Shown one piece after another: positions 6,214-22,079 of a stretch of DNA of 24,548 bases (the first letter of the stretch is position 1; the number at the start of each line of letters is the position of its first letter). This stretch comes from a virus. Location of the stretch: IMG/VR virus record IMGVR_UViG_3300031974_000276, positions 1 to 24,548 of that record; one strand, given 5' to 3'. The notes under the pieces were generated by a model, which saw nothing but the letters and a program-made list of their open reading frames with translations, had not been told where the DNA came from and made no database searches. A program made the translations under genes and the position numbers.

Positions 6214-6987
6214 CTACTTCGGTGGATTTTTTTTCATCTCCAGGCTTTTTTTTTTCAATTCTATATCAGCAGCCTTATCTACTTCTTTCCACTCTTTATT
6301 AGATTTTTCTTCTTCTATTTTTTTTAATTTTTCTTGTACTTTTTTTAATTCTTCTTGTCTAGCAATCTCATCTTTCTTTGCTTGAATTTTGTCTGCTTTC
6401 TGTACAACTTTTAATCTCTTTGTATAGATTTCATAATCAGGTCTTAACTTATTGTATTTTGACCATTGTTCAGTTGCAGCCTTACCAATTTTACCTTCAA
6501 ACGGACAAGGTGTACCTGATTGTTCCATTGCAAAGAAAACTCTAGGATCCTGACATAAAATTGACACAGCAGCCACTTTCATACCAAGGTCATTTAATAC
6601 TTTTGATAATTTTATACGTTCACAATTTTCGTCTGTTCTATATGTACCAGCAGATATACCTAAACCAAATGAAGACATACCACCTGACATACCAACCACA
6701 CATAAATCCTGTGACATTGCTGACATACTAGGTGCTGAAGATGAATTTACAACTCTTTGGTCACCTGTATAGGCGTTTGTTGTAGTAGTAGATGTGGTAT
6801 TGGAAGACGAACCACTAGCGTAAGTAGTAGTTGATTCTTGGCTATATCCACCAGAAATTGTGGTGTTAGAACCCGAAGTTGTTGTTTGTGTGTTGGTCGT
6901 GGCACCATTTGAAGTGGTGTCCGCAAGTGTCAATTGTGTTAGTCCCATAACGAAACATAGTATAAGACCGATTAGAGTCTTGTTCAT
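6214..6987 (-). CDS. Secreted Ser/Thr-rich protein with Cys-containing domain and charged helix
   Basis: 257 aa, function unknown. A Sec signal peptide spans residues 1-22 (hydrophobic core, then L-T-L-A before D). Residues 23-85 are a Ser/Thr/Gly-rich low-complexity stretch. A compact domain at 90-165 holds four cysteines (96, 122, 145, 161), suitable for two disulphides in the periplasm. Residues 190-250 are a Lys/Glu-rich single helix. An AAGGA ribosome-binding site four bases before the ATG fixes the start. It is the first gene after a duplicated late promoter, so probably strongly expressed late. It leads a unit of secreted and membrane proteins; a role in the envelope during virion release is inferred. 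Confidence 0.8.
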   Translation of the reverse strand: MNKTLIGLILCFVMGLTQLTLADTTSNGATTNTQTTTSGSNTTISGGYSQESTTTYASGSSSNTTSTTTTNAYTGDQRVVNSSSAPSMSAMSQDLCVVGMSGGMSSFGLGISAGTYRTDENCERIKLSKVLNDLGMKVAAVSILCQDPRVFFAMEQSGTPCPFEGKIGKAATEQWSKYNKLRPDYEIYTKRLKVVQKADKIQAKKDEIARQEELKKVQEKLKKIEEEKSNKEWKEVDKAADIELKKKSLEMKKNPPK

Positions 6988-7057: not shown

Positions 7058-7084
7058 TATTTATAAAAGATATTTATAAAAGAT
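7058..7084 (-). promoter_or_regulatory. Duplicated T4-type late promoter in a 13-bp tandem repeat
   Basis: Two exact TATAAATA late promoter motifs occur at 7078-7071 and 7065-7058, each inside one copy of a perfect 13-bp tandem repeat (7059-7071 and 7072-7084). They lie 71 and 84 bases before the ATG of the 257-aa secreted protein, in the only sizeable gap (about 96 bases) of this area. The sites overlap the very end of the 72-aa gene. Confidence 0.75.
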
Positions 7085-9318: not shown

Positions 9319-9765
9319 TTAATCCTTACTTTTTTTATTTGTATCTATATATGTCTGGTAAATCTTATGAGCCTGACCTAGATTTTTTTTCTTTTCAGGA
9401 TCCTTTGCTCTTTCACTTGCAACCTTGGCTCTTTGCGACATTGCAATTGCAGCCTGCATTTTGTGAGCGTGTGTTTTACCAGAATTCTTAATCTTACTTA
9501 CAGATTTTCTAGCAGTTTCGCCATCTGTAAAACCTAAACCGTGTATTGTACCTTTAGGATTTTCGTCTGTATATAAATCAGAGTGTTTATCTGAACCTGC
9601 TTTTTGACCAGGTTTTCTAGGTATTCTTTTACTTGCATTAATACCTACACTCCTTTTTGTTTTATATTGAGCGCCTTTAGGTGGCGTATCACCTAAACTA
9701 GCAATGGGAGCTAAACTATTAACACCATTACTAAAGCCTGTTATATATTCTTTTAGAGTCTTCAT
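9319..9765 (-). CDS. Basic protein with DUF6321/DUF5872-like domain and capsid-targeting-like N-terminus
   Basis: 148 aa, very Lys/Arg-rich, no catalytic motif. The segment G-T-I-H-G-L-G-F-T-D-G-E-T-A followed by H-A-H-K-M-Q-A-A-I-A-M-S-Q-R-A matches my memory of a small domain (DUF6321 or DUF5872) common in large phages and viruses. The N-terminus MKTLKEYITGF resembles the T4 capsid-targeting sequence MKTYQEFIAEA. It overlaps the upstream gene by ATGA. A basic, possibly DNA-binding, internal head protein is the inferred role. Confidence 0.75.
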   Translation of the reverse strand: MKTLKEYITGFSNGVNSLAPIASLGDTPPKGAQYKTKRSVGINASKRIPRKPGQKAGSDKHSDLYTDENPKGTIHGLGFTDGETARKSVSKIKNSGKTHAHKMQAAIAMSQRAKVASERAKDPEKKKNLGQAHKIYQTYIDTNKKSKD

Positions 9766-10928: not shown

Positions 10929-11366
10929 TTACACTAATTTAGCGTAAACTTTAGACATTCCTGTTTTTAACGTTTCGTACTCTACTTGAAGTTTCAAACC
11001 ACCTTCTTTTTTATGAGAAATACCATCATCATTAATATCAGAACCATCTACGTCCTTACCAAATCTTCCTCCACCAAATTTTACTTCGGTTGTAAAGTTA
11101 CCTTTTTCACCAGTAGTTTCTTGAACAGGTACAAATAGACCTATTCTAGCTAAATTATTTCTTATTTCTTCAACAGCTGTTTGAGCAGACATATATTCTT
11201 TGCTCGCTGTTCCACCAAGAAATGCATTAACTCTTTTTAAAACTTCCGGGTCGTGTATGTTGTGAACACCAACAGAACCATCTTCAAAAGAAGCTGCGTC
11301 AGCTGTACCAACGTGGCCACCATCAAGACTTTCTTTGATGTTTATGTGTTGTTTAAAAGTTTTCAT
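10929..11366 (-). CDS. Candidate internal head protein with capsid-targeting-like N-terminus
   Basis: 145 aa, not assigned to a family. The N-terminus MKTFKQHINIKESLDGG matches the T4 capsid-targeting pattern (M-K-T-aromatic-x-x-x-I), and I-K-E before Ser13 would suit a gp21-type prohead protease, which cuts after [IL]-x-E. The rest is a compact mixed domain with a Gly-rich loop (F-G-G-G-R-F-G) and Asp-rich turn D-G-S-D-I-N-D-D-G. It overlaps the small gene upstream by one base (TAATG). A virion-internal or minor structural role is inferred. Confidence 0.75.
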   Translation of the reverse strand: MKTFKQHINIKESLDGGHVGTADAASFEDGSVGVHNIHDPEVLKRVNAFLGGTASKEYMSAQTAVEEIRNNLARIGLFVPVQETTGEKGNFTTEVKFGGGRFGKDVDGSDINDDGISHKKEGGLKLQVEYETLKTGMSKVYAKLV

Positions 11367-12668: not shown

Positions 12669-13151
12669 TTAATCTTCTAGGAGTTTTTTGAGAAGTCTGA
12701 TAGTTCTTGAAGTATCACCATTATGGACAACACCTTGTCCACCTTTAGCTCTAAATTCATTAACGTTTTTAGGATAATCGTCTATCAGTATTGAATTCTT
12801 ATCTGCGTATTGTTGTTTTTGTACACGCTTAACAAGATTAATTCTATTAGAGGCAATGCCAAGATTTTTGGTTGCCCAATATTTTTTACCAGGTACACAA
12901 TTCTTATCGTAAGTATCCTCTACGTAAGCTGATAAAATTTCTGTATTATATTTTTTTAGGAAGTTCCAGAGTTGTTTGCCGCCTTTATGCCAAGGTAATG
13001 TAGACCAAAAATCTGGTTTACTTTTGATAGCACCCCATTTTTCAGACTTACTGCCTTGAGCCCAAACGTCAATCTTCTTGCCGGTAAGTGTTTCAGCACC
13101 TTTTACAAAGTCGCATAGTACACCATCCATATCGCAATAGATTTTTTTCAT
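12669..13151 (-). CDS. HAD-type 5'(3')-deoxyribonucleotidase
   Basis: 160 aa, the usual length of the NT5C family. The nucleophile motif D-x-D-G-V-L-x-D-F is at residues 7-15 (Asp7, Asp9), motif II Ser74 in E-I-L-S-A, and the metal-binding pair Asp124-Asp125 in S-I-L-I-D-D-Y-P. Such enzymes dephosphorylate deoxyribonucleoside monophosphates and in phages are thought to balance nucleotide pools. It is separated by about 60 bases from the gene upstream, without a late-type motif, and has an AAAGGA ribosome-binding site, so it may have its own earlier promoter; none is convincing. It splits two late units, and fits functionally with nrdA and the adenylate kinase. Confidence 0.85.
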   Translation of the reverse strand: MKKIYCDMDGVLCDFVKGAETLTGKKIDVWAQGSKSEKWGAIKSKPDFWSTLPWHKGGKQLWNFLKKYNTEILSAYVEDTYDKNCVPGKKYWATKNLGIASNRINLVKRVQKQQYADKNSILIDDYPKNVNEFRAKGGQGVVHNGDTSRTIRLLKKLLED

Positions 13152-13211: not shown

Positions 13212-13484
13212 TTACTTATTATACGTGATTTTTGGCTCGGTATCAACTTTAGTTTTAGTTTCACCAGACATTGTTTTGCCTTTGCCCTCTGATTCTTTTT
13301 TATACTTTGAGTCCATCTTATTGAAAAAATCTTTTTTCTCTTGGTCAGACATTGAAGCCAGACCTTTACCAGTTTTTTCTAATTCTTTTTTGAACATTTG
13401 TTGGTAAGCAGAATCATTAATATATTTTGTAAGGTCTTTAGTTGCTTCCTCTAAACTACCTGATTTTGAATTAAAATATCCCAT
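13212..13484 (-). CDS. Small Lys-rich module protein
   Basis: 90 aa, about a quarter Lys plus Glu. The segment A-Y-Q-Q-M-F-K-K-E-L followed by S-M-S-D-Q-E-K-K-D-F-F-N-K-M-D matches a small helical module that, from memory, recurs as a free protein or as part of larger head-associated proteins in marine T4-like phages. Tail is low-complexity. It is coupled by TAATG to the 587-aa gene, has an AAAAGGA site, and ends the unit that starts at 20536. No enzyme function is visible. Confidence 0.75.
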   Translation of the reverse strand: MGYFNSKSGSLEEATKDLTKYINDSAYQQMFKKELEKTGKGLASMSDQEKKDFFNKMDSKYKKESEGKGKTMSGETKTKVDTEPKITYNK

Positions 13485-15247
13485 TATTTTCCTTTTACTT
13501 GTTTTGCTAAATCTTTATCTGCACCACCCCAAGTACCACTTGATTTGGTTACAAAAGAATTAACTCTTGCGAAAGCCCATTGTTGTTGAGTAGCACCTGG
13601 TCTGTGGCCACCTCGCCAAGCTGCCATACCTCTATCGTAAACTTTTTTAAGAATACCATAAGGCATTCCTGATTTCTCAGCCTTATTTTTTAAACCTGCA
13701 ATTTGTTCAAAGACTGCCCTAGCTGGGTGTTCTTCGTTCTTCATTTTAGGTTTCATACCTTGTTTTTTTAATCTGTCTATATCTGCAACAGCAGGAGCAT
13801 TTTCAGCTTTTACGGTTGCACCATAATAGTTTTTAAGGTCAATAGCATACTTGTTTAAGTCTGCACCTTTACCATCAATTTTCATTACAAGACCTTTAGC
13901 GTCAATTGTAAAACCGTGTTTTGCTAAATCAGTTGAAGCCTTTGCCATCTTATCGTGTGTTTTAAAAGTAGCTGTCATCTTCTTCATTTCTTCTAATGAT
14001 TCAGGTACACAATTAGGTACTTTCTTACCACCCTTATCTTTTAAACCGACTTGTTTGTATCCTGTCCAACAAGCTTCAAACATTTCTTCATCCATTTCTT
14101 CACCGAATTGAATATTTTTTACCGTAAATTTCATATTTCTTACTGCAAGTTTACTTCTTGAACCACTTGAAATAAAAGGTATGTTTTCTTTACCTAATTT
14201 TTGTAGGTCTGCTTCTTTAAATTTATCAAGAATATTCATAAGTTGTTTTGCTCTAGCAGCTGTAATCTTTTTATTTCTAAAAGGTTCGTATTCTTTTTTA
14301 AGAGTTGCAATCATTTGAGGTGTAATACCTGCTTCTTGTAAATCAACTTCTTCTTTCATTTTAGAAAGTTTATCACCAATTTCGTGGCCTTTTTTGATAG
14401 TTTTCTTATCTAAAGGTGGCTCATCATTGTATTTCTTTTTTGCAACTGACATACCAATAGCATATGCTTTACCATTTGGCATTTCAACTTTTAAACTTTC
14501 TTCAACTTTATTTTCTGATTTTTCTTTTTCTCTTTTCATCTTATCTTTAAGATGTTTATATGCAATACCAACTTGTAATAATGGTTCACCTGTTTCTGGA
14601 TTTACCATTTTCTGTGTATCTTTTTGAACAGCTTTACTTTTTTCTAAATCAATTTTTTGTTTTAGAACATTAATTTGGTCATCTTTCTTTTCAACATCAG
14701 CTTTTAATTTTTCTGTATCGTCTGACTTTTCTTTTTTATCTTCTTTTTTATCTGTTTCAACAGGCACATCATTGTCAGGTGCTACATCTGTTTTTTCTTT
14801 TTTCTTTACAGCTTCTTCCCAAGTCTCAACGGTTTCTTTAATCTTATCTGTCTTAGCTTTTGCTTGAGCGTCTTGCATATCTTGAGCAGAATCACCATCT
14901 GATTCACCTAGAATTGCTTTTACCGTTTTTACATCTATGCCTAATTCTTTTGCAATCTTAGCCGCTGACGCACCTTGTTTTCTCATTGCGTCTATATCTG
15001 ACATTCTACCTTCAACTAAATCTGATAGTTGATTAATACCTGCGTGTTTGATTGCTAGTTGTGTAGGGACATCCATATTTGCAATCATTTTTTTGACTGC
15101 TGGTGTCACATCTGATTTTGTTTTATGTTTCCATAAATTTTTAATGTTCTTAATTTGTGTATCATTCAGTCTTGATTGTAAGTAACCAACTTCATTTAAG
15201 TTTACTTCAGCCATTGCTTCTGATATTGTTTTTCTATATCTACTCAT
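13484..15247 (-). CDS. Large Lys-rich mosaic protein, probable head-internal/scaffold-like
   Basis: 587 aa, no catalytic motif. Apparent modules: N-terminal helical domain with a helix-turn-helix-like stretch (about 86-112); charged coiled coil (130-250); an A-G-I-T-P-Q-M-I-A-T-L module (306-365); C-W-T-G-Y-K-Q-V-G-L ... P-N-C-V-P-E (393-416); a helical part with K-H-G-F-T-I-D-A-K-G-L (443-453); and a C-terminal domain (S-G-M-P-Y-G-I-L-K-K-V-Y-D-R-G, R-V-N-S-F, T-W-G-G-A-D-K-D-L) recalling the DUF5824 type. Several [IL]-x-E sites lie near module borders: ISE/A (10), LNE/V (19), LGE/S (115), LQE/A (305), as a prohead protease would need. Coupled by TAATG on both sides. Packaged core protein is inferred. 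Confidence 0.8.
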   Translation of the reverse strand: MSRYRKTISEAMAEVNLNEVGYLQSRLNDTQIKNIKNLWKHKTKSDVTPAVKKMIANMDVPTQLAIKHAGINQLSDLVEGRMSDIDAMRKQGASAAKIAKELGIDVKTVKAILGESDGDSAQDMQDAQAKAKTDKIKETVETWEEAVKKKEKTDVAPDNDVPVETDKKEDKKEKSDDTEKLKADVEKKDDQINVLKQKIDLEKSKAVQKDTQKMVNPETGEPLLQVGIAYKHLKDKMKREKEKSENKVEESLKVEMPNGKAYAIGMSVAKKKYNDEPPLDKKTIKKGHEIGDKLSKMKEEVDLQEAGITPQMIATLKKEYEPFRNKKITAARAKQLMNILDKFKEADLQKLGKENIPFISSGSRSKLAVRNMKFTVKNIQFGEEMDEEMFEACWTGYKQVGLKDKGGKKVPNCVPESLEEMKKMTATFKTHDKMAKASTDLAKHGFTIDAKGLVMKIDGKGADLNKYAIDLKNYYGATVKAENAPAVADIDRLKKQGMKPKMKNEEHPARAVFEQIAGLKNKAEKSGMPYGILKKVYDRGMAAWRGGHRPGATQQQWAFARVNSFVTKSSGTWGGADKDLAKQVKGK

Positions 15248-15597
15248 TAGTTATTTACCTTTGCTCCTGCTCTCCATTGATAACAAGACCAATATCGTGC
15301 TTTCCATTTAGGACCTGGATTATCACAATTGTGCCTTGCTCTAAACGATTTACGTCTAGCTGGGTCGTCTCTTTTAATACTTAAACCTGTTGTGTCACCA
15401 AACGATACTTTAACTACATTACCTTTTTCGTTCTTAACATAAACATAAAACTTCTTACTACCACCACGAATTGGGTCATTAAGTTTGACCTTTTTGCCTT
15501 GATATTCAGACTCTTGTAAAGGTTCGTGTTCGTGTTCAAAAATACACTCATCACATTCTTTATCGTAGTTTTCAAATTCTTTTAATGTTTTTACCAT
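15247..15597 (-). CDS. Cys-containing conserved domain protein
   Basis: 116 aa. The N-terminal 35 residues are acidic with C-D-E-C and H-E-H-E-P, possibly metal-binding. The C-terminal 75 residues are a basic domain with K-K-F-Y-V-Y-V-K, V-K-V-S-F-G-D, D-D-P-A-R-R-K-S-F-R-A-R-H-N-C-D-N-P-G-P and W-S-C-Y-Q-W. I recognise this as a domain widespread in marine T4-like phage genomes beside or fused to head maturation genes, without a known activity. N-terminus M-V-K-T-L-K-E-F-E-N loosely fits the capsid-targeting pattern. TAATG overlaps at both ends. Confidence 0.8.
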   Translation of the reverse strand: MVKTLKEFENYDKECDECIFEHEHEPLQESEYQGKKVKLNDPIRGGSKKFYVYVKNEKGNVVKVSFGDTTGLSIKRDDPARRKSFRARHNCDNPGPKWKARYWSCYQWRAGAKVNN

Positions 15598-17894
15598 TAG
15601 ACTTTCTCTATCATTTTAGCAACAGCCTCTTTTAGCTTTGCTTCCCATTGTTCTTTATAACGTTCCCTATATTTATTCATTGTGGACTCTGTAGCTGCCC
15701 ATTCTTTTATGTCTTTTTCAGTAGGGCTATCTGTTTCTCTTTCTAGGAAACCTTTGATTTTCTTCTTAACTGCCATATCACCACTACCTGGTTGTGACGG
15801 TTTGTATGTGGGATTTTCATATCCTGCATAGTCTGGTTCACCTGGTGTTATGGTTGATGTATGTTTAGCGTAGTCGTTACCAATGTCTGTCGCCTCTTTA
15901 ATCTTTGAAACGAGGTCTTTTCGTAATTCTCCAAACATTTTTTTATATTTCTGCGTGTGTTTAGATGGTTTAGTTTTAGCTGTCTTATCTCCAGGTGCTG
16001 GAGTGTTGTCATTCTTGGTTGTGTCTTTGCCTTTAAAATGGCCAGCTCGTTTATCTTTAACATCTTTTTTTAGTCCACTATAATACTTTTTAGGTTGTGT
16101 TCCTTCTTTATCTTTCACGTCTTTATCTTGAGCCAATCTATCAGTATGTGCTTTAGAAGCCTCTGATACTGCCTCAAATCCATAGTCAACGTCTAGGTTA
16201 TATTCCCTCACGTCTACCTCTCTATCTGCCGATACAGGTACACAATCCCATATCCAAGCTTTATGTAAATTATTTTTATCGTCTTCTAATACGACATAAT
16301 TAGTACCTTTTCTTTTTACGATACCTTGTATATCTTCTTTGACATAATCAACTTTGTCGCCAATGTTAAATATCATTTCTCTAATATATAAATCTCTAAT
16401 TTGTTGGTGTTCAAAGTCTTTAAATGGTACAACTTCTTTAGTCTCGCCTGTGTATTGAGCGGCTAAATTCATACCTTGTCTTACTTGTTTCATTATAGCA
16501 TTTGCGTCAACACCTCTTGGTAGTCCTCTTTTAAAACTAGCAATATCGTTGCTTGAAGCAGCTGCTCTCATTTTACTTGCTGACATACCTGATACGTTAT
16601 CGGCATCGGGGTCTCTTTCGCCAGCAGATACAACATCAATATTATCAAAGTTATAATAACCGTGTCTTGATTTTACATCATTATACTTTTTAATTATTGT
16701 ATCAAATTCTCTAACTCTATCACTACCTACAACCATAGTTATATCACTATAACCTTTTTTGTAAAGTAATGTACAAATATCTAATATCATATTTGTATTG
16801 TTAACTTCTATATTTCTTGCGTGTCTAGGAAACATCTTTTTCATTATGTCTAGTTTTTGTCTAGGCGATAATGGATTCTTTTTAGGGTCCTGACTTCTAC
16901 TTAAATAAATTCTGTAATCGTTTGACCTAATACTTGCCACTTTATTAATTAACTTTTCGTGGCCAGTTGTAGGTGGATTAAATCTACCAAAACTAAATGC
17001 GATTGACTTGCCTTTAGCTTCGTGCATTTCTAAATCATCTATCTCTTTATCGGTAACTTTACCGTCATCTAAAATCTTTTTACATTTTTTATAGAAGTTT
17101 AAATAGTGATACTTTTCTAACATTTTATAGATAACATTTTTAGGCAATCTATTCTTAATACCAAACTTTTGTATTTGGTCTGGTGTCATATCTGAATCAA
17201 AAGCAGCTCTTCTATCTGCGTCAACACCATCACCTACTTTAATAATGGCTTTGATACTATCTTCTATTTCTTCTAATTTATCGTTAATTCTATCTTGTAA
17301 ATTTAAAATATCATTAGGTTCTAATTCTTCTAATTCTCTGTAATCAATAATGTCTCTTTTTAATTCACCTTTGATAACATCTAACTCTTGTACTTTTTTC
17401 TCAAAATCTTTTAAGTATAAACTAGGGTCAAATGTAAAATCGTCAGGTCTTTTTATAAACTTATTACCCTCAATATCAAATACAGCGTCAGCCTTTTTGT
17501 TTTGGTCTTCGTATGTTTCTTTATCTGTAATAAAATAATAATTAATTGGGTGTTCAGAACCAGGTATTAATTTACCTTGAATATTATCTGGATTACTAGC
17601 AGACAAATACTTTTTAGATAATCTTGTTCTTTCTTCTTCTTGTTTATCAGCAGGCACATCAAACAATACATTAAGGTCTAGGTCTGCGTCATTTCTATAT
17701 CTCTTTGTAAGAATAGAACCGATAAGAGAAACTTTTAAAACAGGATACTCACTTTCAAATTCTTCTAGTTGTTTATTGATTAATACAACAACACTAGGTT
17801 TGATTTTAGGATTAGGAGTATCAGCGTCATCAAACACAGCCTTAGCATATGTTCTTCTTGGTATATCTATGATACTTTCTTTAAACGTTTTCAT
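15597..17894 (-). CDS. Double nucleotidyltransferase: pol-beta type plus HIGH-superfamily domains
   Basis: 765 aa from the ATG at 17894, which overlaps the kinase stop as ATGA; a longer frame starting 33 bases earlier is less likely. N-terminal region 30-130 resembles a pol-beta-type nucleotidyltransferase (L-I-G-S at 57-60; D-A-D-L-D-L-N-V with Asp71/Asp73). Residues 295-470 form a HIGH-superfamily cytidylyl/NMN-adenylyl-type domain: G-R-F-N-P-P-T-T-G-H (TTGH instead of HxGH, ending His312), V-V-G-S-D-R, and S-G-M-S-A-S-K-M-R (435-443). An SH3/KOW-like segment follows (509-552), then a basic low-complexity tail (P-A-P-G-D-K-T-A-K-T-K-P-S-K-H-T). N-terminus MKTFKESIIDI is capsid-targeting-like. 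Substrates cannot be told; NAD precursors, tRNA ends or proteins are options. Confidence 0.8.
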   Translation of the reverse strand: MKTFKESIIDIPRRTYAKAVFDDADTPNPKIKPSVVVLINKQLEEFESEYPVLKVSLIGSILTKRYRNDADLDLNVLFDVPADKQEEERTRLSKKYLSASNPDNIQGKLIPGSEHPINYYFITDKETYEDQNKKADAVFDIEGNKFIKRPDDFTFDPSLYLKDFEKKVQELDVIKGELKRDIIDYRELEELEPNDILNLQDRINDKLEEIEDSIKAIIKVGDGVDADRRAAFDSDMTPDQIQKFGIKNRLPKNVIYKMLEKYHYLNFYKKCKKILDDGKVTDKEIDDLEMHEAKGKSIAFSFGRFNPPTTGHEKLINKVASIRSNDYRIYLSRSQDPKKNPLSPRQKLDIMKKMFPRHARNIEVNNTNMILDICTLLYKKGYSDITMVVGSDRVREFDTIIKKYNDVKSRHGYYNFDNIDVVSAGERDPDADNVSGMSASKMRAAASSNDIASFKRGLPRGVDANAIMKQVRQGMNLAAQYTGETKEVVPFKDFEHQQIRDLYIREMIFNIGDKVDYVKEDIQGIVKRKGTNYVVLEDDKNNLHKAWIWDCVPVSADREVDVREYNLDVDYGFEAVSEASKAHTDRLAQDKDVKDKEGTQPKKYYSGLKKDVKDKRAGHFKGKDTTKNDNTPAPGDKTAKTKPSKHTQKYKKMFGELRKDLVSKIKEATDIGNDYAKHTSTITPGEPDYAGYENPTYKPSQPGSGDMAVKKKIKGFLERETDSPTEKDIKEWAATESTMNKYRERYKEQWEAKLKEAVAKMIEKV

Positions 17895-18583
17895 CTTCTT
17901 CTTAATTTTCTTTCCGTAGCCATCCATCTTTTTGCTGTGTATGACTTAATTTTATTTGACAATAAACTTCTTACGGCTTTACCTACTTTATTCATTACAA
18001 CGGTTGTAAGTTCTTTATCATCTTTACTATTATCTACAATCACCATATTACCCATACCAAATAAATTTTGAAATCTACCAATATTAGCTTGTACGCCTTC
18101 CCAAGATTTTCTTGTAATATATTCTGGTACACTTCTTTCTCTTTTAGAGTTTCTTTCTAATGCCACATCTAAACTAGTATTAACAAATATCATATAACAA
18201 TCATAACCTAATTGTCTCAATTGTGCTGTTTGACTTTTAATCTTATCATAATCTCTACCAGTACCATCAACAACCATACCTAATCTGCCTTTGATAGATA
18301 AGTCCATTATATTACCTGTTGTTGCCTTTGCTCTGGCTCTTACTATATCTCTTGCCTCTGCCTCATCTTCAGGCATTTTTAGTGAAAGATTATTTTTCTT
18401 TAATGCAACTTCAAAAGCATTATCAGAGTTAATCATTCTTAAACCTGTGCCACCAAATGCACTTCTGGTTACAAATGTTTTACCAGAACCTGGACCACCT
18501 GCAAGAAAAAATGCCTTAAAAATATTAGGGTCATATAAACCCTCATTTAATTCTGTATATTTTATGTCGTTAAATGTTTTCAT
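17891..18583 (-). CDS. P-loop kinase, zeta-toxin/polynucleotide-kinase-like
   Basis: 230 aa. Walker A is A-G-G-P-G-S-G-K-T (28-36). A catalytic Asp54 sits in I-N-S-D, Walker B-like Asp106 in V-V-D-G-T-G-R-D, and an Arg-rich lid in E-R-N-S-K-R-E-R-S-V-P (143-153). This order fits the zeta-toxin/T4 Pnk branch that phosphorylates nucleic acid ends or small sugars and nucleotides; which one is not visible. N-terminus MKTFNDIKYTELNEG is capsid-targeting-like with L-N-E before Gly15 as a possible protease site. ATGA overlaps link it to the adenylate kinase upstream and the double nucleotidyltransferase downstream, so the three are made together. Confidence 0.85.
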   Translation of the reverse strand: MKTFNDIKYTELNEGLYDPNIFKAFFLAGGPGSGKTFVTRSAFGGTGLRMINSDNAFEVALKKNNLSLKMPEDEAEARDIVRARAKATTGNIMDLSIKGRLGMVVDGTGRDYDKIKSQTAQLRQLGYDCYMIFVNTSLDVALERNSKRERSVPEYITRKSWEGVQANIGRFQNLFGMGNMVIVDNSKDDKELTTVVMNKVGKAVRSLLSNKIKSYTAKRWMATERKLRRR

Positions 18584-19161
18584 CTTTCTATTCTTTTTAT
18601 AATTTTATTTGCAATAACTTCAGGCTCTGCACCCTCAGCCTTTATATTTATTAATTGTTCATCAAAATGTTTAATAACTGGACCAACTTGTTTTTCGTGT
18701 TCTCGTAATCTTTGTTTAATAACCTCTGGTTTATCATCTGCTCTACCTCTGGCCGTCAATCTTTTAATTACTTCTTGTTCAGATACTTGTAAGTTAATAA
18801 TAAAATTATGTTCTATATTATTTTTATCCATTGCTCTTACTTGTTCCATACTTCTAGGAAAACCATCAAATACATATCCGTTTCTTGCGTCTGGTTTTTT
18901 AAGTCTGTCCATAACTTCTCTCATAACAATCTCTGTCGGAGCAAACTTACCATTCGCTAATAATTCTTTTACTCTTTTACCATCTGGCGTATCTTTCTTT
19001 GCCAAGTCTCTCATCATATCACCAGTATAAATGTGTGGTATATCAAAATGCTTTGTAATATATTTTGAGTAAGTTGATTTACCCGAACCTGGTCCACCTA
19101 TCATTATAATCTGCCAAGGTCCACCTTTTATTTCTCTTAAAAATCTTTCTACAAATTTCAC
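18580..19161 (-). CDS. adk: Adenylate kinase (NMP kinase) with extended N-terminus
   Basis: 193 aa, typical of the short-lid adenylate kinases. P-loop G-G-P-G-S-G-K-S (22-29), NMP-binding T-G-D-M-M-R-D (46-52), signature V-F-D-G-F-P-R (97-103) and short lid G-R-A-D-D-K-P-E (139-146). It interconverts AMP and ATP to ADP; other NMPs may be substrates. The start is a GTG at 19161 within a GTGA overlap with the 53-aa gene. The catalytic fold normally begins close to the P-loop strand, but here about 16 residues precede it, MKFVERFLREIKGG, resembling M-K-T-Y-Q-E-F-I-A-E of T4 internal proteins, with L-R-E before Ile11. This is a rare phage-encoded adk, presumably maintaining nucleotide pools. Confidence 0.88.
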   Translation of the reverse strand: MKFVERFLREIKGGPWQIIMIGGPGSGKSTYSKYITKHFDIPHIYTGDMMRDLAKKDTPDGKRVKELLANGKFAPTEIVMREVMDRLKKPDARNGYVFDGFPRSMEQVRAMDKNNIEHNFIINLQVSEQEVIKRLTARGRADDKPEVIKQRLREHEKQVGPVIKHFDEQLINIKAEGAEPEVIANKIIKRIER

Positions 19162-19319
19162 TTTCTATATCCTGTGCCTTTATCTCTGTTGCCCCATCTT
19201 TTTTGCCAAGCCCAAACACTCATTCTACCACCTATGCTTTCACATATTGAATAGTATTTGTCTAAAACACCAATCATTTTACTTTTAATTAAATCAATTG
19301 TATCTGGTATTGTTCTCAT
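19158..19319 (-). CDS. 53-aa hypothetical protein
   Basis: A complete short frame fills the gap between two genes: ATG at 19319 in a TAATG overlap with the ligase-like gene, TGA at 19160-19158 overlapping the GTG of the adenylate kinase. The product starts M-R-T-I-P-D-T-I-D-L-I and ends in a Trp-rich, basic segment S-V-W-A-W-Q-K-R-W-G-N-R-D-K-G. The Trp/Arg-rich end could bind nucleic acid or a protein partner. No homologue recognised with confidence. Confidence 0.6.
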   Translation of the reverse strand: MRTIPDTIDLIKSKMIGVLDKYYSICESIGGRMSVWAWQKRWGNRDKGTGYRK

Positions 19320-20536
19320 TAATTCCATCCTTTTGGCATTGTAAAGTTTTGCCTGCTAAATTCTAATCTATCTACAAGTTTAACTGCACCTGCAACTCTA
19401 TCAACGGCCACATATCCTTCAGGAGCGGTTACTCTATAACCACTTGAAGTTCTAACAAAGTGACCTATACTTTGAATTTGATTCATCTTTCTTAATAAAG
19501 TATTTTTAGCATTTGCTAAAGTAATATGACTTGCAATCGCAAAGTATAATGCTGTTCTATTTCTTTTAATAAAATCCATACCTTCTTTTTTTGCTTTTTG
19601 GTATGGTGCTTTACCTCTATCAGTTTTCTTACTATCAATTTCTTTATCTAATACGTTTTCGTAATATGTTTCAAATCTTTTTTGCATATCTCTTACACCA
19701 CCCATATTACCTTGCGTTGTTTTGATAAAGTGATTAAAGAAAGTTTTTAATCTAAAGCCAACCGTGTTAGTGTCTTGACTTGTTTTAGACATTTCATTTA
19801 ACATAGGAGCTGCTTTAGATAAAGAGCCTTCAGCCATTCTTATTTGTGCGTCAAAAGCTTTTAGTTCATTAGCATTAAACATAACTGAACCTGACTTATC
19901 TGTATATTGAGCAGACGCTAAAAATATATTTGAACCACCATTACCTCTAACGGTACCAAAACCTGCTGATAAACTTTTCATATTTTTACCAGTATAAGAT
20001 GTATGAAATACAATACCCATTTTGGCTCTAGCAATTTGTCTACCTATGCTACTATTTACCGGTACTGCATATGTAATTGTATTAGGTGTAAATGAAAGCA
20101 TTTTTTCGCCATCAATATTTACTACTTTTAAATCGTCTGTAAATAATAGGTCACCTTGCAAGATACCTTTGATTGGTAATTTTTTAAGATAATTAAAACA
20201 ATATGAAAGTTTTTGAGCTGCACCACCTGTGCCGTGATTTTTTTTAATATCTGATATTGAATAATTGATTTTAGGTGTGACGTTGAATACTGATTTAGTA
20301 CCAACAAAGAATTTTCCGTTTTCTGGATTTTGACCACATATAATAGCAGGCGCACCGTCCCATTTAACGGTCATATTAACTGCACCTTTGGCATTACCAG
20401 CCAACATATTTCTAACTGATTTTAGAAAGCTTATTGCATTATCACCACCTTTGGCACCGTTATTGATAATATCATCTTCTAGGTGTTCAAGGTGTGTGTT
20501 TTTGTCCTGTGTAAAGAAACCTTTAAAACTAAACAT
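19319..20536 (-). CDS. Ligase-like covalent nucleotidyltransferase (DUF6267-like)
   Basis: 405 aa. V-K-W-D-G-A-P-A-I (57-65) matches motif I (KxDGxP) of the DNA/RNA ligase and mRNA-capping superfamily, with Lys58 as the would-be AMP/GMP-accepting residue. Then come F-F-V-G-T-K (77-82), G-I-L-Q-G-D-L-L-F-T (124-133, motif III-like) and K-M-G-I-V-F-H (172-178, motif IV-like but lacking the usual acidic residue). The second half is helical and unassigned. From memory such proteins are called DUF6267 in cyanophages, with H-L-E-H-L-E-D as an N-terminal hallmark, present here (15-21). GGAG ribosome-binding site; exact late promoter 60 bases upstream. Could seal RNA or DNA, or attach a nucleotide to protein. 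Confidence 0.75.
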   Translation of the reverse strand: MFSFKGFFTQDKNTHLEHLEDDIINNGAKGGDNAISFLKSVRNMLAGNAKGAVNMTVKWDGAPAIICGQNPENGKFFVGTKSVFNVTPKINYSISDIKKNHGTGGAAQKLSYCFNYLKKLPIKGILQGDLLFTDDLKVVNIDGEKMLSFTPNTITYAVPVNSSIGRQIARAKMGIVFHTSYTGKNMKSLSAGFGTVRGNGGSNIFLASAQYTDKSGSVMFNANELKAFDAQIRMAEGSLSKAAPMLNEMSKTSQDTNTVGFRLKTFFNHFIKTTQGNMGGVRDMQKRFETYYENVLDKEIDSKKTDRGKAPYQKAKKEGMDFIKRNRTALYFAIASHITLANAKNTLLRKMNQIQSIGHFVRTSSGYRVTAPEGYVAVDRVAGAVKLVDRLEFSRQNFTMPKGWN

Positions 20537-20595: not shown

Positions 20596-20603
20596 TATTT
20601 ATA
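20596..20603 (-). promoter_or_regulatory. T4-type late promoter (TATAAATA)
   Basis: Exact TATAAATA on the minus strand, 60 bases before the ATG of the ligase-like gene, in the 67-base gap after the 491-aa gene. It would drive the entire coupled unit down to 13212. Confidence 0.75.
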
Positions 20604-22079
20604 CTATGAAACCTTTAGAAAAAAGGTAGAAATATCCGTATTTGACATAGCATATCTAACAATCTGTCTTGAAAATTCATCAAGTTTTTTACCTTTTCTA
20701 TCGGCTTCAACTGCCTCTAAAAAAAGTAAACCCATATACTTACCAAAATAAAAAGCTTTACTTTTGTTTTGGCCTCTTTGTGTATATTCATCTGCGTTCT
20801 TTTTAAATATGTCTTTAGCTACCACGTCTTGTTTATTAGTACCAGGTTTTTGTTTGTTTATAAATCTGATATATAAATTGTAAAAGTTATCAAGGTTAAT
20901 TTCCTTATAGTAAGTCTCTCTATAAGTTGATTGATTACTTCTATGACCAATGGTTCTGTTAAAATTCTTTTCTACATAATGATTGACAACACCACCACCT
21001 ATTTTACCAGCAGCTGCATATTTGCCTTTCATTTCACCTTGCCAAGATTTAATTGTTTCCATAGCTCTTAATTGCATTTGACCACCATCACTAAAATGTA
21101 GGTAAACATCTGCTGAATTAAAAAAATCTCCTGTCTGACCAAAAGTAAAACCAGCAAATTTTGTATCGGCATTATGAGTTCTTTTCCTAGTATTAAATGG
21201 TGTTACCGTTGCTTGTGAACCACCGACTTTTTTTAAAGATATGCCTAAAGTATGTTCATCAACTTTATCTCTAACTGCTTCTCTTAATTCTGTCCATTCT
21301 ACTGGTAAAGTTTTTTCATCTTTAGAAAATGGTAATTTACTAGTAGGTTGTTTTGTACTCATCCATATATCTCCTGGATTCCACTTATCATCATTAAAAG
21401 AACCAGGTGCTATAGGTGGATTATTAACTTTCTTATCGTAATCTTGAGCTTTCTTTTTATTATCATAAACAGCTTTCATAAAAGGAGACCCTCTATGAAA
21501 ATAAACTTTTTTATTTTTAAAAACTTTTACATACTGCGAATTATAAATTGCATTGGCAGACTTTATAAAAACATCTGTTTTAAACCAATCTTCAGGACAT
21601 TTTTCGTATAAATCTTCAATTTTGTTTCTTTGAGATTTATCATAAGTAAAACAATAATCGTGTTGTTTTTTTAGTGCTTTTATATCTGTATTTTGATTAG
21701 TTAATTTAGTAGCACCAGTATTAAAAAGTATAGATAGAAAATAACATTGTAATGATTCAGTTATAGCCGTGTCGCTTGCACCACCACCTGAACCTTTACC
21801 ACCACCAAAATCGGGGTCTTTGAAAAATTTAGAAACTAAATCTCTACCTGTTTCAGTTCTTCCTGATTTACTATTAGAATATACAATAGTGTATTTGCCT
21901 TTATCGTCTTTGAGTAATTTTAAACCATAGACTTTTCTACCATTAGCATTTTGACCTAGTATAAATTCTTTTTTATCTCTGACTTTACATTCAAAAATGC
22001 TTACATAATCCTTACCTTTATAAGGACCACCGCTGGCTGTGTACTTGTCTTTAAATCTACTAGCTGATAATTGACCCAT
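20604..22079 (-). CDS. Conserved hypothetical protein, 491 aa
   Basis: No family recognised with confidence. A N-terminal domain (1-90) is followed by a Gly-rich linker (92-101) and a helical stretch with T-E-S-L-Q-C-Y-F-L (107-115). Later come W-N-P-G-D-I-W-M (233-240) and G-I-S-L-K-K-V-G-G-S (279-288). The spaced E108, D237 and S-L-K (281-283) with Lys283 resemble the layout of PD-(D/E)XK nucleases, but Glu of the ExK pair is Ser here, so this is only a suggestion. Ribosome-binding site GGGAG, spacing seven. A GATAAATA late-type site lies 19 bases upstream of the ATG. Similar size and style as the next gene, which suggests a partner role. Confidence 0.75.
   Translation of the reverse strand: MGQLSASRFKDKYTASGGPYKGKDYVSIFECKVRDKKEFILGQNANGRKVYGLKLLKDDKGKYTIVYSNSKSGRTETGRDLVSKFFKDPDFGGGKGSGGGASDTAITESLQCYFLSILFNTGATKLTNQNTDIKALKKQHDYCFTYDKSQRNKIEDLYEKCPEDWFKTDVFIKSANAIYNSQYVKVFKNKKVYFHRGSPFMKAVYDNKKKAQDYDKKVNNPPIAPGSFNDDKWNPGDIWMSTKQPTSKLPFSKDEKTLPVEWTELREAVRDKVDEHTLGISLKKVGGSQATVTPFNTRKRTHNADTKFAGFTFGQTGDFFNSADVYLHFSDGGQMQLRAMETIKSWQGEMKGKYAAAGKIGGGVVNHYVEKNFNRTIGHRSNQSTYRETYYKEINLDNFYNLYIRFINKQKPGTNKQDVVAKDIFKKNADEYTQRGQNKSKAFYFGKYMGLLFLEAVEADRKGKKLDEFSRQIVRYAMSNTDISTFFLKVS

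Follow-up and report, generated by a model that had tools for sequence, protein, structure and literature searches.

Gene content and coupling of the unit

The window analysed here is the whole 24.5-kb stretch (24,548 nucleotides, 32.7% GC) of the virus record IMGVR_UViG_3300031974_000276. Its gene order matches that of the Pelagibacter phage HTVC008M (T4-like, Kyanoviridae), and it apparently comes from a marine T4-like phage whose hosts are SAR11 bacteria. On the minus strand, 3' of the gp41 helicase gene, lie successively the genes for a phrog_1462 protein, a DUF6267 protein, a 53-amino-acid (aa) protein, an adenylate kinase (Adk), a zeta/PNK-like kinase, a nucleotidyltransferase with pol-beta and HIGH domains, a phrog_7595 protein and a DUF5824 protein. 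We suggest that the unit running from DUF6267 to DUF5824 probably encodes enzymes carried in the phage head. Its main features are the following.

19319..20536, minus strand: DUF6267 protein, 405 aa (Pfam E 4e-119), a probable ligase-type covalent nucleotidyltransferase
20354..20365, minus strand: K58-W-D-G of DUF6267, candidate nucleotidyl-lysine motif I, with K58, D60 and G61 invariant
19158..19319, minus strand: conserved 53-aa open reading frame (ORF), MRTIPDTIDLIKSKMIGVLDKYYSICESIGGRMSVWAWQKRWGNRDKGTGYRK, between DUF6267 and Adk and overlapping both
18580..19161, minus strand: adenylate kinase, 193 aa, GTG start (Pfam ADK, PF00406, E 1.5e-40)
17891..18583, minus strand: zeta/PNK-like P-loop kinase, 230 aa, with Walker A (Pfam AAA_33 and Zeta_toxin, E ~1e-11)
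15597..17894, minus strand: double nucleotidyltransferase of 765 aa when read from the corrected start, beginning MKTFKESIIDIPRR (NTP_transf_2 E 1e-5, CTP_transf_like E 8e-5)
17613..17780, minus strand: its predicted pol-beta-type domain (Pfam NTP_transf_2), with a GS...DLDL motif read from sequence
16458..17009, minus strand: its HIGH-type adenylyltransferase domain, PPAT/NMNAT-like fold (Z 13-14)
15247..15597, minus strand: phrog_7595 protein, 116 aa, the next gene, coupled to the nucleotidyltransferase
13484..15247, minus strand: DUF5824 protein, 587 aa, leader-like start MSRYRKTISEA

A preliminary description of the window had proposed four enzymes at 15597-20536, produced from one coupled unit. 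Gene content and coupling, which we observed directly, agree with it: each enzyme is present there with its Pfam match, and from the DUF6267 gene to the DUF5824 gene each neighbouring pair overlaps by 1 or 4 bases (1 base for DUF6267/53-aa ORF and for nucleotidyltransferase/phrog_7595; 4 bases for 53-aa ORF/Adk, Adk/kinase and kinase/nucleotidyltransferase). Among relatives the order DUF6267-Adk-kinase-nucleotidyltransferase-phrog_7595 is repeated with similarly small gaps, the Adk gene being limited to some lineages. The 53-aa ORF had been overlooked; its relatives retain MSVWAWQKRW...GTGYRK.

In Adk, the motifs GGPGxGKST (Walker A) and FDGFPR are invariant, and a 15-aa N-terminal extension falls outside the alignment to solved adenylate kinases. 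The best solved relative of the P-loop kinase is zeta toxin (1gvn, E 3e-4); no 3'-phosphatase domain of the T4 Pnkp type was found in its 230 residues, where all profile matches are to kinases. For the nucleotidyltransferase, previously delimited as 15597-17927, both domains were retained and the start was moved, 17894 being the most likely because of the common beginning of the family (MKTFKESIIDIPRRTY) and the usual 4-base overlap. The pol-beta call is based on the Pfam match of about 1e-5 and the GS...DLDL motif. The HIGH-type domain has conserved motifs and a fold like that of phosphopantetheine and NMN adenylyltransferases, between which it does not discriminate: the PPAT and NMNAT folds tie, and the NCBIfam nadR and coaD matches lie far under their cut-offs. 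A profile search of the protein against PDB gave no match, and its predicted model has long low-confidence and helical tails. The database name "cytidylyltransferase" is a family label only. A fusion of DUF6267 with this protein, hinted at by a long PHROG profile, was rejected: S-SM1 and Syn19 have separate, overlapping genes.

Packaging-type leaders and virion data

In T4, the first ten residues of the internal-protein leader suffice for targeting to the head, positions 4 and 7 being the most important, and the protease gp21 cleaves after L/I-x-E (PMC9026906). IPI of T4 begins with MKTFKEF and IPIII with MKTYQEFIAE; the leader score used here measures similarity to these two starts only. Comparable starts were found in the unit.

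20507..20536, minus strand: leader-like start of DUF6267 (MFSFKGFFTQ), aromatic at positions 4 and 7
19132..19161, minus strand: leader of Adk (MKFVERFLRE); relatives have MKSFKQYFFEA and similar starts
18542..18583, minus strand: leader of the kinase, MKTFNDIKYTELNE, ending in prohead-protease-type LNE before GLYDP
15511..15597, minus strand: phrog_7595 leader, MVKTLKEFENY...EPLQE, with LQE at its end

Window scores were 23 for phrog_7595, 22 for the nucleotidyltransferase, 20 for the kinase, and 16 for both Adk and DUF5824. Scores of at least 18 were reached by 82% of phrog_7595, 66% of Adk and 39% of nucleotidyltransferase family proteins, against 0% for gp41 and for gp43, 1% for UvsX and at most 2% in shuffles. 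In the Adk family, a start such as MKSFKQYFFEAINGP precedes the first residues of the ordinary enzyme. Immediately ahead of the domain, L/I-x-E was present in every one of 47 distinct kinase N-termini and of 42 distinct phrog_7595 N-termini; the sequences are related, so that the counts do not stand for independent events. The middle residue of the motif varies freely. Read from sequence, LRE of Adk and ISE of DUF5824 are also of this type, and FKE of the window nucleotidyltransferase weakly so. A T4-like prohead protease is present in relatives. In DUF6267, a segment of about 10 residues ahead of the conserved core acts like a detachable leader cassette: pelagiphage and DLP_6-like copies have it, cyanophage copies lack it. 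In line with packaging by way of the leader, these leaderless cyanophage copies do not figure in three virion lists.

The leader score was then compared with a published virion list, using 133 proteins from two genome stretches of the cyanophage S-CREM2. Scores of at least 14 were obtained for 7 of the 17 non-structural virion proteins against 5 of the 116 undetected ones (Fisher p 9e-5; p 6e-4 and 2e-3 at thresholds 12 and 18). The leader-positive virion proteins include a SAM hydrolase, an APH-like kinase and a cytidylyltransferase. As a separate observation, the published S-CREM2 virion proteins (L325, 7704-10313 and 3837-5081) include a nuclease resembling Cas9, which carries the leader-like stretch FASFMAEA internally, and a SAM hydrolase whose start is MKDFDSFLEEF. 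In HTVC008M, 5 of the 19 genes in the corresponding block reach 14, against 1 of 125 elsewhere. The strict leader pattern was dropped as a sole criterion, as UvsX starts match it too.

Homologues of the HIGH domain have been detected by mass spectrometry in virions of S-SM1 (PMC3037559), S-SZBM1 (PMC9146016), S-SCSM1 (PMC9602691) and S-CREM2 (PMC10665884), S-CBWM1 being cited in PMC9602691. In S-SCSM1, five consecutive genes (ORF89-93), including the phrog_1462 homologue, encode annotated virion proteins. The passages of these cyanophage accounts that were read describe no targeting leader, and a literature search for capsid targeting in cyanophages brought up a single review, on T4. Considering the homologue mass spectrometry and the T4-type leaders with their prohead-protease motif, most of the set is very probably packaged, as the preliminary description had proposed by comparison with T4 Alt; absence from virions, which it had named as evidence to the contrary, is contradicted for the nucleotidyltransferase by the homologue data.

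Packaging-type leaders extend downstream of the unit to about 9319, and the neighbouring genes are as follows.

20604..22079, minus strand: 491-aa phrog_1462 protein, encoded next to the unit on its upstream side; its homologue S-SCSM1 ORF90 is annotated as a virion protein, and the window copy has no leader
12669..13151, minus strand: NT5C-like HAD phosphatase (weak Pfam match), window copy without leader-like start
10929..11366, minus strand: unknown protein, leader-like start MKTFKQHINIKES
9319..9765, minus strand: unknown protein, leader-like start MKTLKEYITG

The NT5C-like protein could be a phosphatase source for the cargo set; its HTVC008M homologue starts leader-like, with MKYSAFKAE. 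In Melnitz-3 (L003 / L010), the homologue of the kinase is not part of the operon but is located next to genes for baseplate and tail (65855-66523 of the record), which shows that the cargo genes change place. Scans of the window for tRNA and Rfam families gave no matches, and anti-phage defence models gave weak matches only.

DUF6267 as a candidate ligase and the promoters ahead of it

Across 38 diverse members of DUF6267, the invariant residues are K58, D60, G61, G128-D129, H178, E373-G374 and K386. In this order they can be assigned to ligase motifs I, III, IIIa, IV and V; a helical region of some 130 residues (222-354) separates motif IIIa from motif IV. The predicted model has a pLDDT of 75.6, and all of its 50 best VIA-align rows are ATP-dependent RNA or DNA ligases: trypanosome RNA editing ligase ranks first (Z 7.6, every Z being below 8 and below the caution line of VIA-align), followed by DNA ligases, the Naegleria ligase, T4 Rnl1, T4 Rnl2 and others. 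Besides these low Z values, it tells against a ligase that a plain Foldseek search of the model was not significant, the ligases surfacing only after structural realignment. No ligase match was obtained against Pfam, NCBIfam or PDB sequences, and sequence searches for relatives with solved structures or among the Pfam ligases gave nothing credible. Because of the all-ligase structural list together with the motifs, we regard a ligase-type enzyme as likely from the predicted fold and invariant residues. The "ligase-like" label given previously to 19319-20536 is thus probably right, through the invariant K58-x-D60-G61 and the predicted fold, though sequence libraries lend it no support.

DUF6267 occurs in 9/9 reference phages of the group tested, and T4 has none. 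Eight of the nine, namely HTVC008M, Melnitz, S-PM2, S-SCSM1, S-SZBM1, S-CREM2, S-SM1 and C48C1, gave no match to the DNA-ligase, NAD-ligase and two RNA-ligase families, the exception being DLP_6; neither did S-SM2 and Syn19, for the three ligase families tested in these two. DNA-ligase matches were found in S-CRM01 and DLP_6, and recognised ligases in three long contigs of the DLP_6-like set. DUF6267 may therefore substitute for a missing ligase in most Kyanoviridae; since DLP_6-like viruses have ordinary ligases, it would be no simple replacement there.

One further element lies ahead of the DUF6267 gene.

20596..20603, minus strand: T4-late-type box, TATAAATA, conserved in relatives

The late promoter previously called at 20596 does not stand out in the window alone, where such boxes are at chance level (6 found against 4.9 expected). 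It is conserved, however: the box is found in 53 of 67 distinct relatives' upstream regions, against 4% in shuffles, and is absent ahead of gp41. A strong sigma-70 promoter precedes DUF6267 in 51 of the same 67 (40 of them with the late box too), as it does uvsX in 24/26 and gp41 in 22/50; in the window, the late box is accompanied by a weak sigma-70 pair only. Because both elements are found ahead of DUF6267 in relatives, the operon is probably transcribed in most of them in the late phase and already before it. On account of the conserved sigma-70 promoters of relatives, "late only" expression was rejected, and the statement that these enzymes come too late to help replication is not supported. 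Early expression, which the preliminary description held would count against its proposal, is raised in part, for the head of the operon. In pelagiphage loci L012-L091, the late box overlaps a consensus TTGACA-17-TATAAT, and some close relatives keep sigma-70 only. Elsewhere in the window, the gene at 6214-6987 is preceded by two TATAAATA late-type boxes 13 bases apart (7058-7078).

These data bear on where DUF6267 acts. It is quite conceivable that the protein works chiefly inside the cell, as a ligase that takes the place of T4 gp30 or of an RNA ligase in replication or repair, the cargo then comprising only the kinase, the nucleotidyltransferase, Adk and phrog_7595. DUF6267 lies beside gp41, is kept in all nine reference relatives, eight of them without a recognisable ligase, and is preceded in relatives by sigma-70 promoters, as replication genes are; moreover, the copies of S-SZBM1, S-SCSM1 and S-CREM2, which have no leader, do not figure among the listed or annotated virion proteins of these three phages. 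Against an intracellular role stand the constant length of the DUF6267 start in pelagiphage and DLP_6-like copies, with the strict leader pattern in 42/45 of the DLP_6-like ones, the late box kept in pelagiphage relatives, and the ordinary ligases that DLP_6-like viruses can carry as well. The fuller proposal is doubtful: DUF6267 would be the unrecognised ligase of marine T4-like phages (Kyanoviridae) and, in the pelagiphage and DLP_6-like lineages, head cargo delivered at infection as a nucleic-acid repair kit, accompanied in pelagiphages by the kinase, the nucleotidyltransferase and an AMP-recycling Adk. DUF6267 is the least certain cargo, because its window leader has no cleavage motif.

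Proposed role of the probable cargo and comparison with known systems

For the unit as a whole, the reading that we favour, and hold to be somewhat probable, is that of phage-head cargo enzymes, docked by leaders, some of them trimmed, injected with the DNA and acting on nucleic-acid ends or limiting nucleotides. From docking and cleavage to injection, substrates and a role in end processing, we infer the following course. The cargo proteins would be made at least partly late; leaders with hydrophobic or aromatic residues at about positions 4 and 7, often followed by L/I-x-E, would dock them in the prohead core, where the prohead protease would trim some. The enzymes would leave the head with the DNA at infection, and in the host DUF6267, the P-loop kinase and the pol-beta/HIGH nucleotidyltransferase would most likely work on the ends of nucleic acids or on nucleotides in short supply at that stage, and Adk could recycle the AMP released by ligation. 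Judged from the domains, nucleic-acid end processing is a tentative assignment and RNA end repair a possible one: end repair would fit the combination of ligase, kinase, nucleotidyltransferase and Adk, and NAD- or CoA-type chemistry would fit the HIGH domain.

Several observations weigh against the packaged set. The window DUF6267 leader scores only 11 and lacks the L/I-x-E motif, and UvsX starts fit a loose leader pattern in 19/86 cases. Many S-CREM2 virion proteins have no leader, and the idea that every packaged protein carries one was discarded. Published virion detection covers the nucleotidyltransferase homologues; DUF6267, Adk and the kinase are unreported in virions. One group of authors could not exclude co-purification in CsCl-purified material. 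Finally, the strong sigma-70 promoters ahead of the operon in relatives speak against expression limited to the late phase and a role confined to packaging.

Other explanations can be set beside the cargo reading. The set might serve NAD or dinucleotide cofactor chemistry, the HIGH domain making NAD-type molecules early in infection. This follows the proposal of the cyanophage authors, who read the homologues as NMNAT with effects on NAD (PMC9602691), and it agrees with the PPAT/NMNAT-like fold and motifs. We find it unlikely: the two folds tie, nadR and coaD matches remain far below cut-offs, and the pol-beta domain, the kinase and DUF6267 are left unexplained. It is improbable that the proteins serve as parts of the head structure or core, with an enzyme activity that is lost or never used; the block does hold many virion proteins and the nucleotidyltransferase has its long, low-confidence, helical tails, but catalytic motifs are conserved (Walker A of Adk, the HIGH-domain positions, KxDG of DUF6267). 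That abundant co-purified proteins account for the virion detections, and chance amphipathic starts for the leaders, as the CsCl caveat and the loose fit of UvsX might suggest, is very improbable given detection of homologues in four separately studied phages, leaders that predict S-CREM2 detection, and an L/I-x-E that is kept while its middle residue is free.

Three points are new here: enzymes of marine phages bear packaging leaders, Adk is probably carried in the head, and DUF6267 becomes a ligase candidate for phages most of which have no recognisable one. If the cargo reading is true, phages that are widespread in the sea deliver active enzymes along with their DNA, a short leader flags which unknown genes encode injected proteins, and a test on the sequence can sort the long list of "auxiliary metabolic" and hypothetical genes. 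Adenylate kinase and NMNAT-like genes would be recast as likely head cargo, and a candidate would be available for the ligase seemingly missing from these phages.

Among known systems, IPI, IPII and IPIII of T4 share the leader of about 10 residues, the key positions 4 and 7 and L/I-x-E before the mature protein; T4 cargo, however, consists of small restriction inhibitors, whereas here we find enzymes with nucleotide and ligase folds whose packaging is predicted from leaders and homologues. The T4-GC190 "cytidyltransferase" or NMNAT-like virion proteins of S-SM1, S-SZBM1, S-SCSM1 and S-CREM2 resemble the window protein in their homologous HIGH-type domain and genome position, but the latter adds an N-terminal pol-beta domain and neighbours Adk and a kinase. 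T4 Rnl1, Rnl2 and related ATP-dependent ligases share KxDG and invariant positions in a ligase-like order with DUF6267 and are its best structural matches; unlike them, DUF6267 has no sequence-level match and carries the helical insertion of about 130 residues. The adk of pelagimyophages, the same gene in related pelagiphages, has been listed as an auxiliary metabolic gene (PMC7029224), whereas we read it, because of its conserved leader, as probable head cargo. Finally, T4 Alt illustrates the idea of a head-packaged, injected enzyme (PMC9503650), and differs in its ADP-ribosyltransferase domain, for which Pfam and NCBIfam profiles found no counterpart in the window set.

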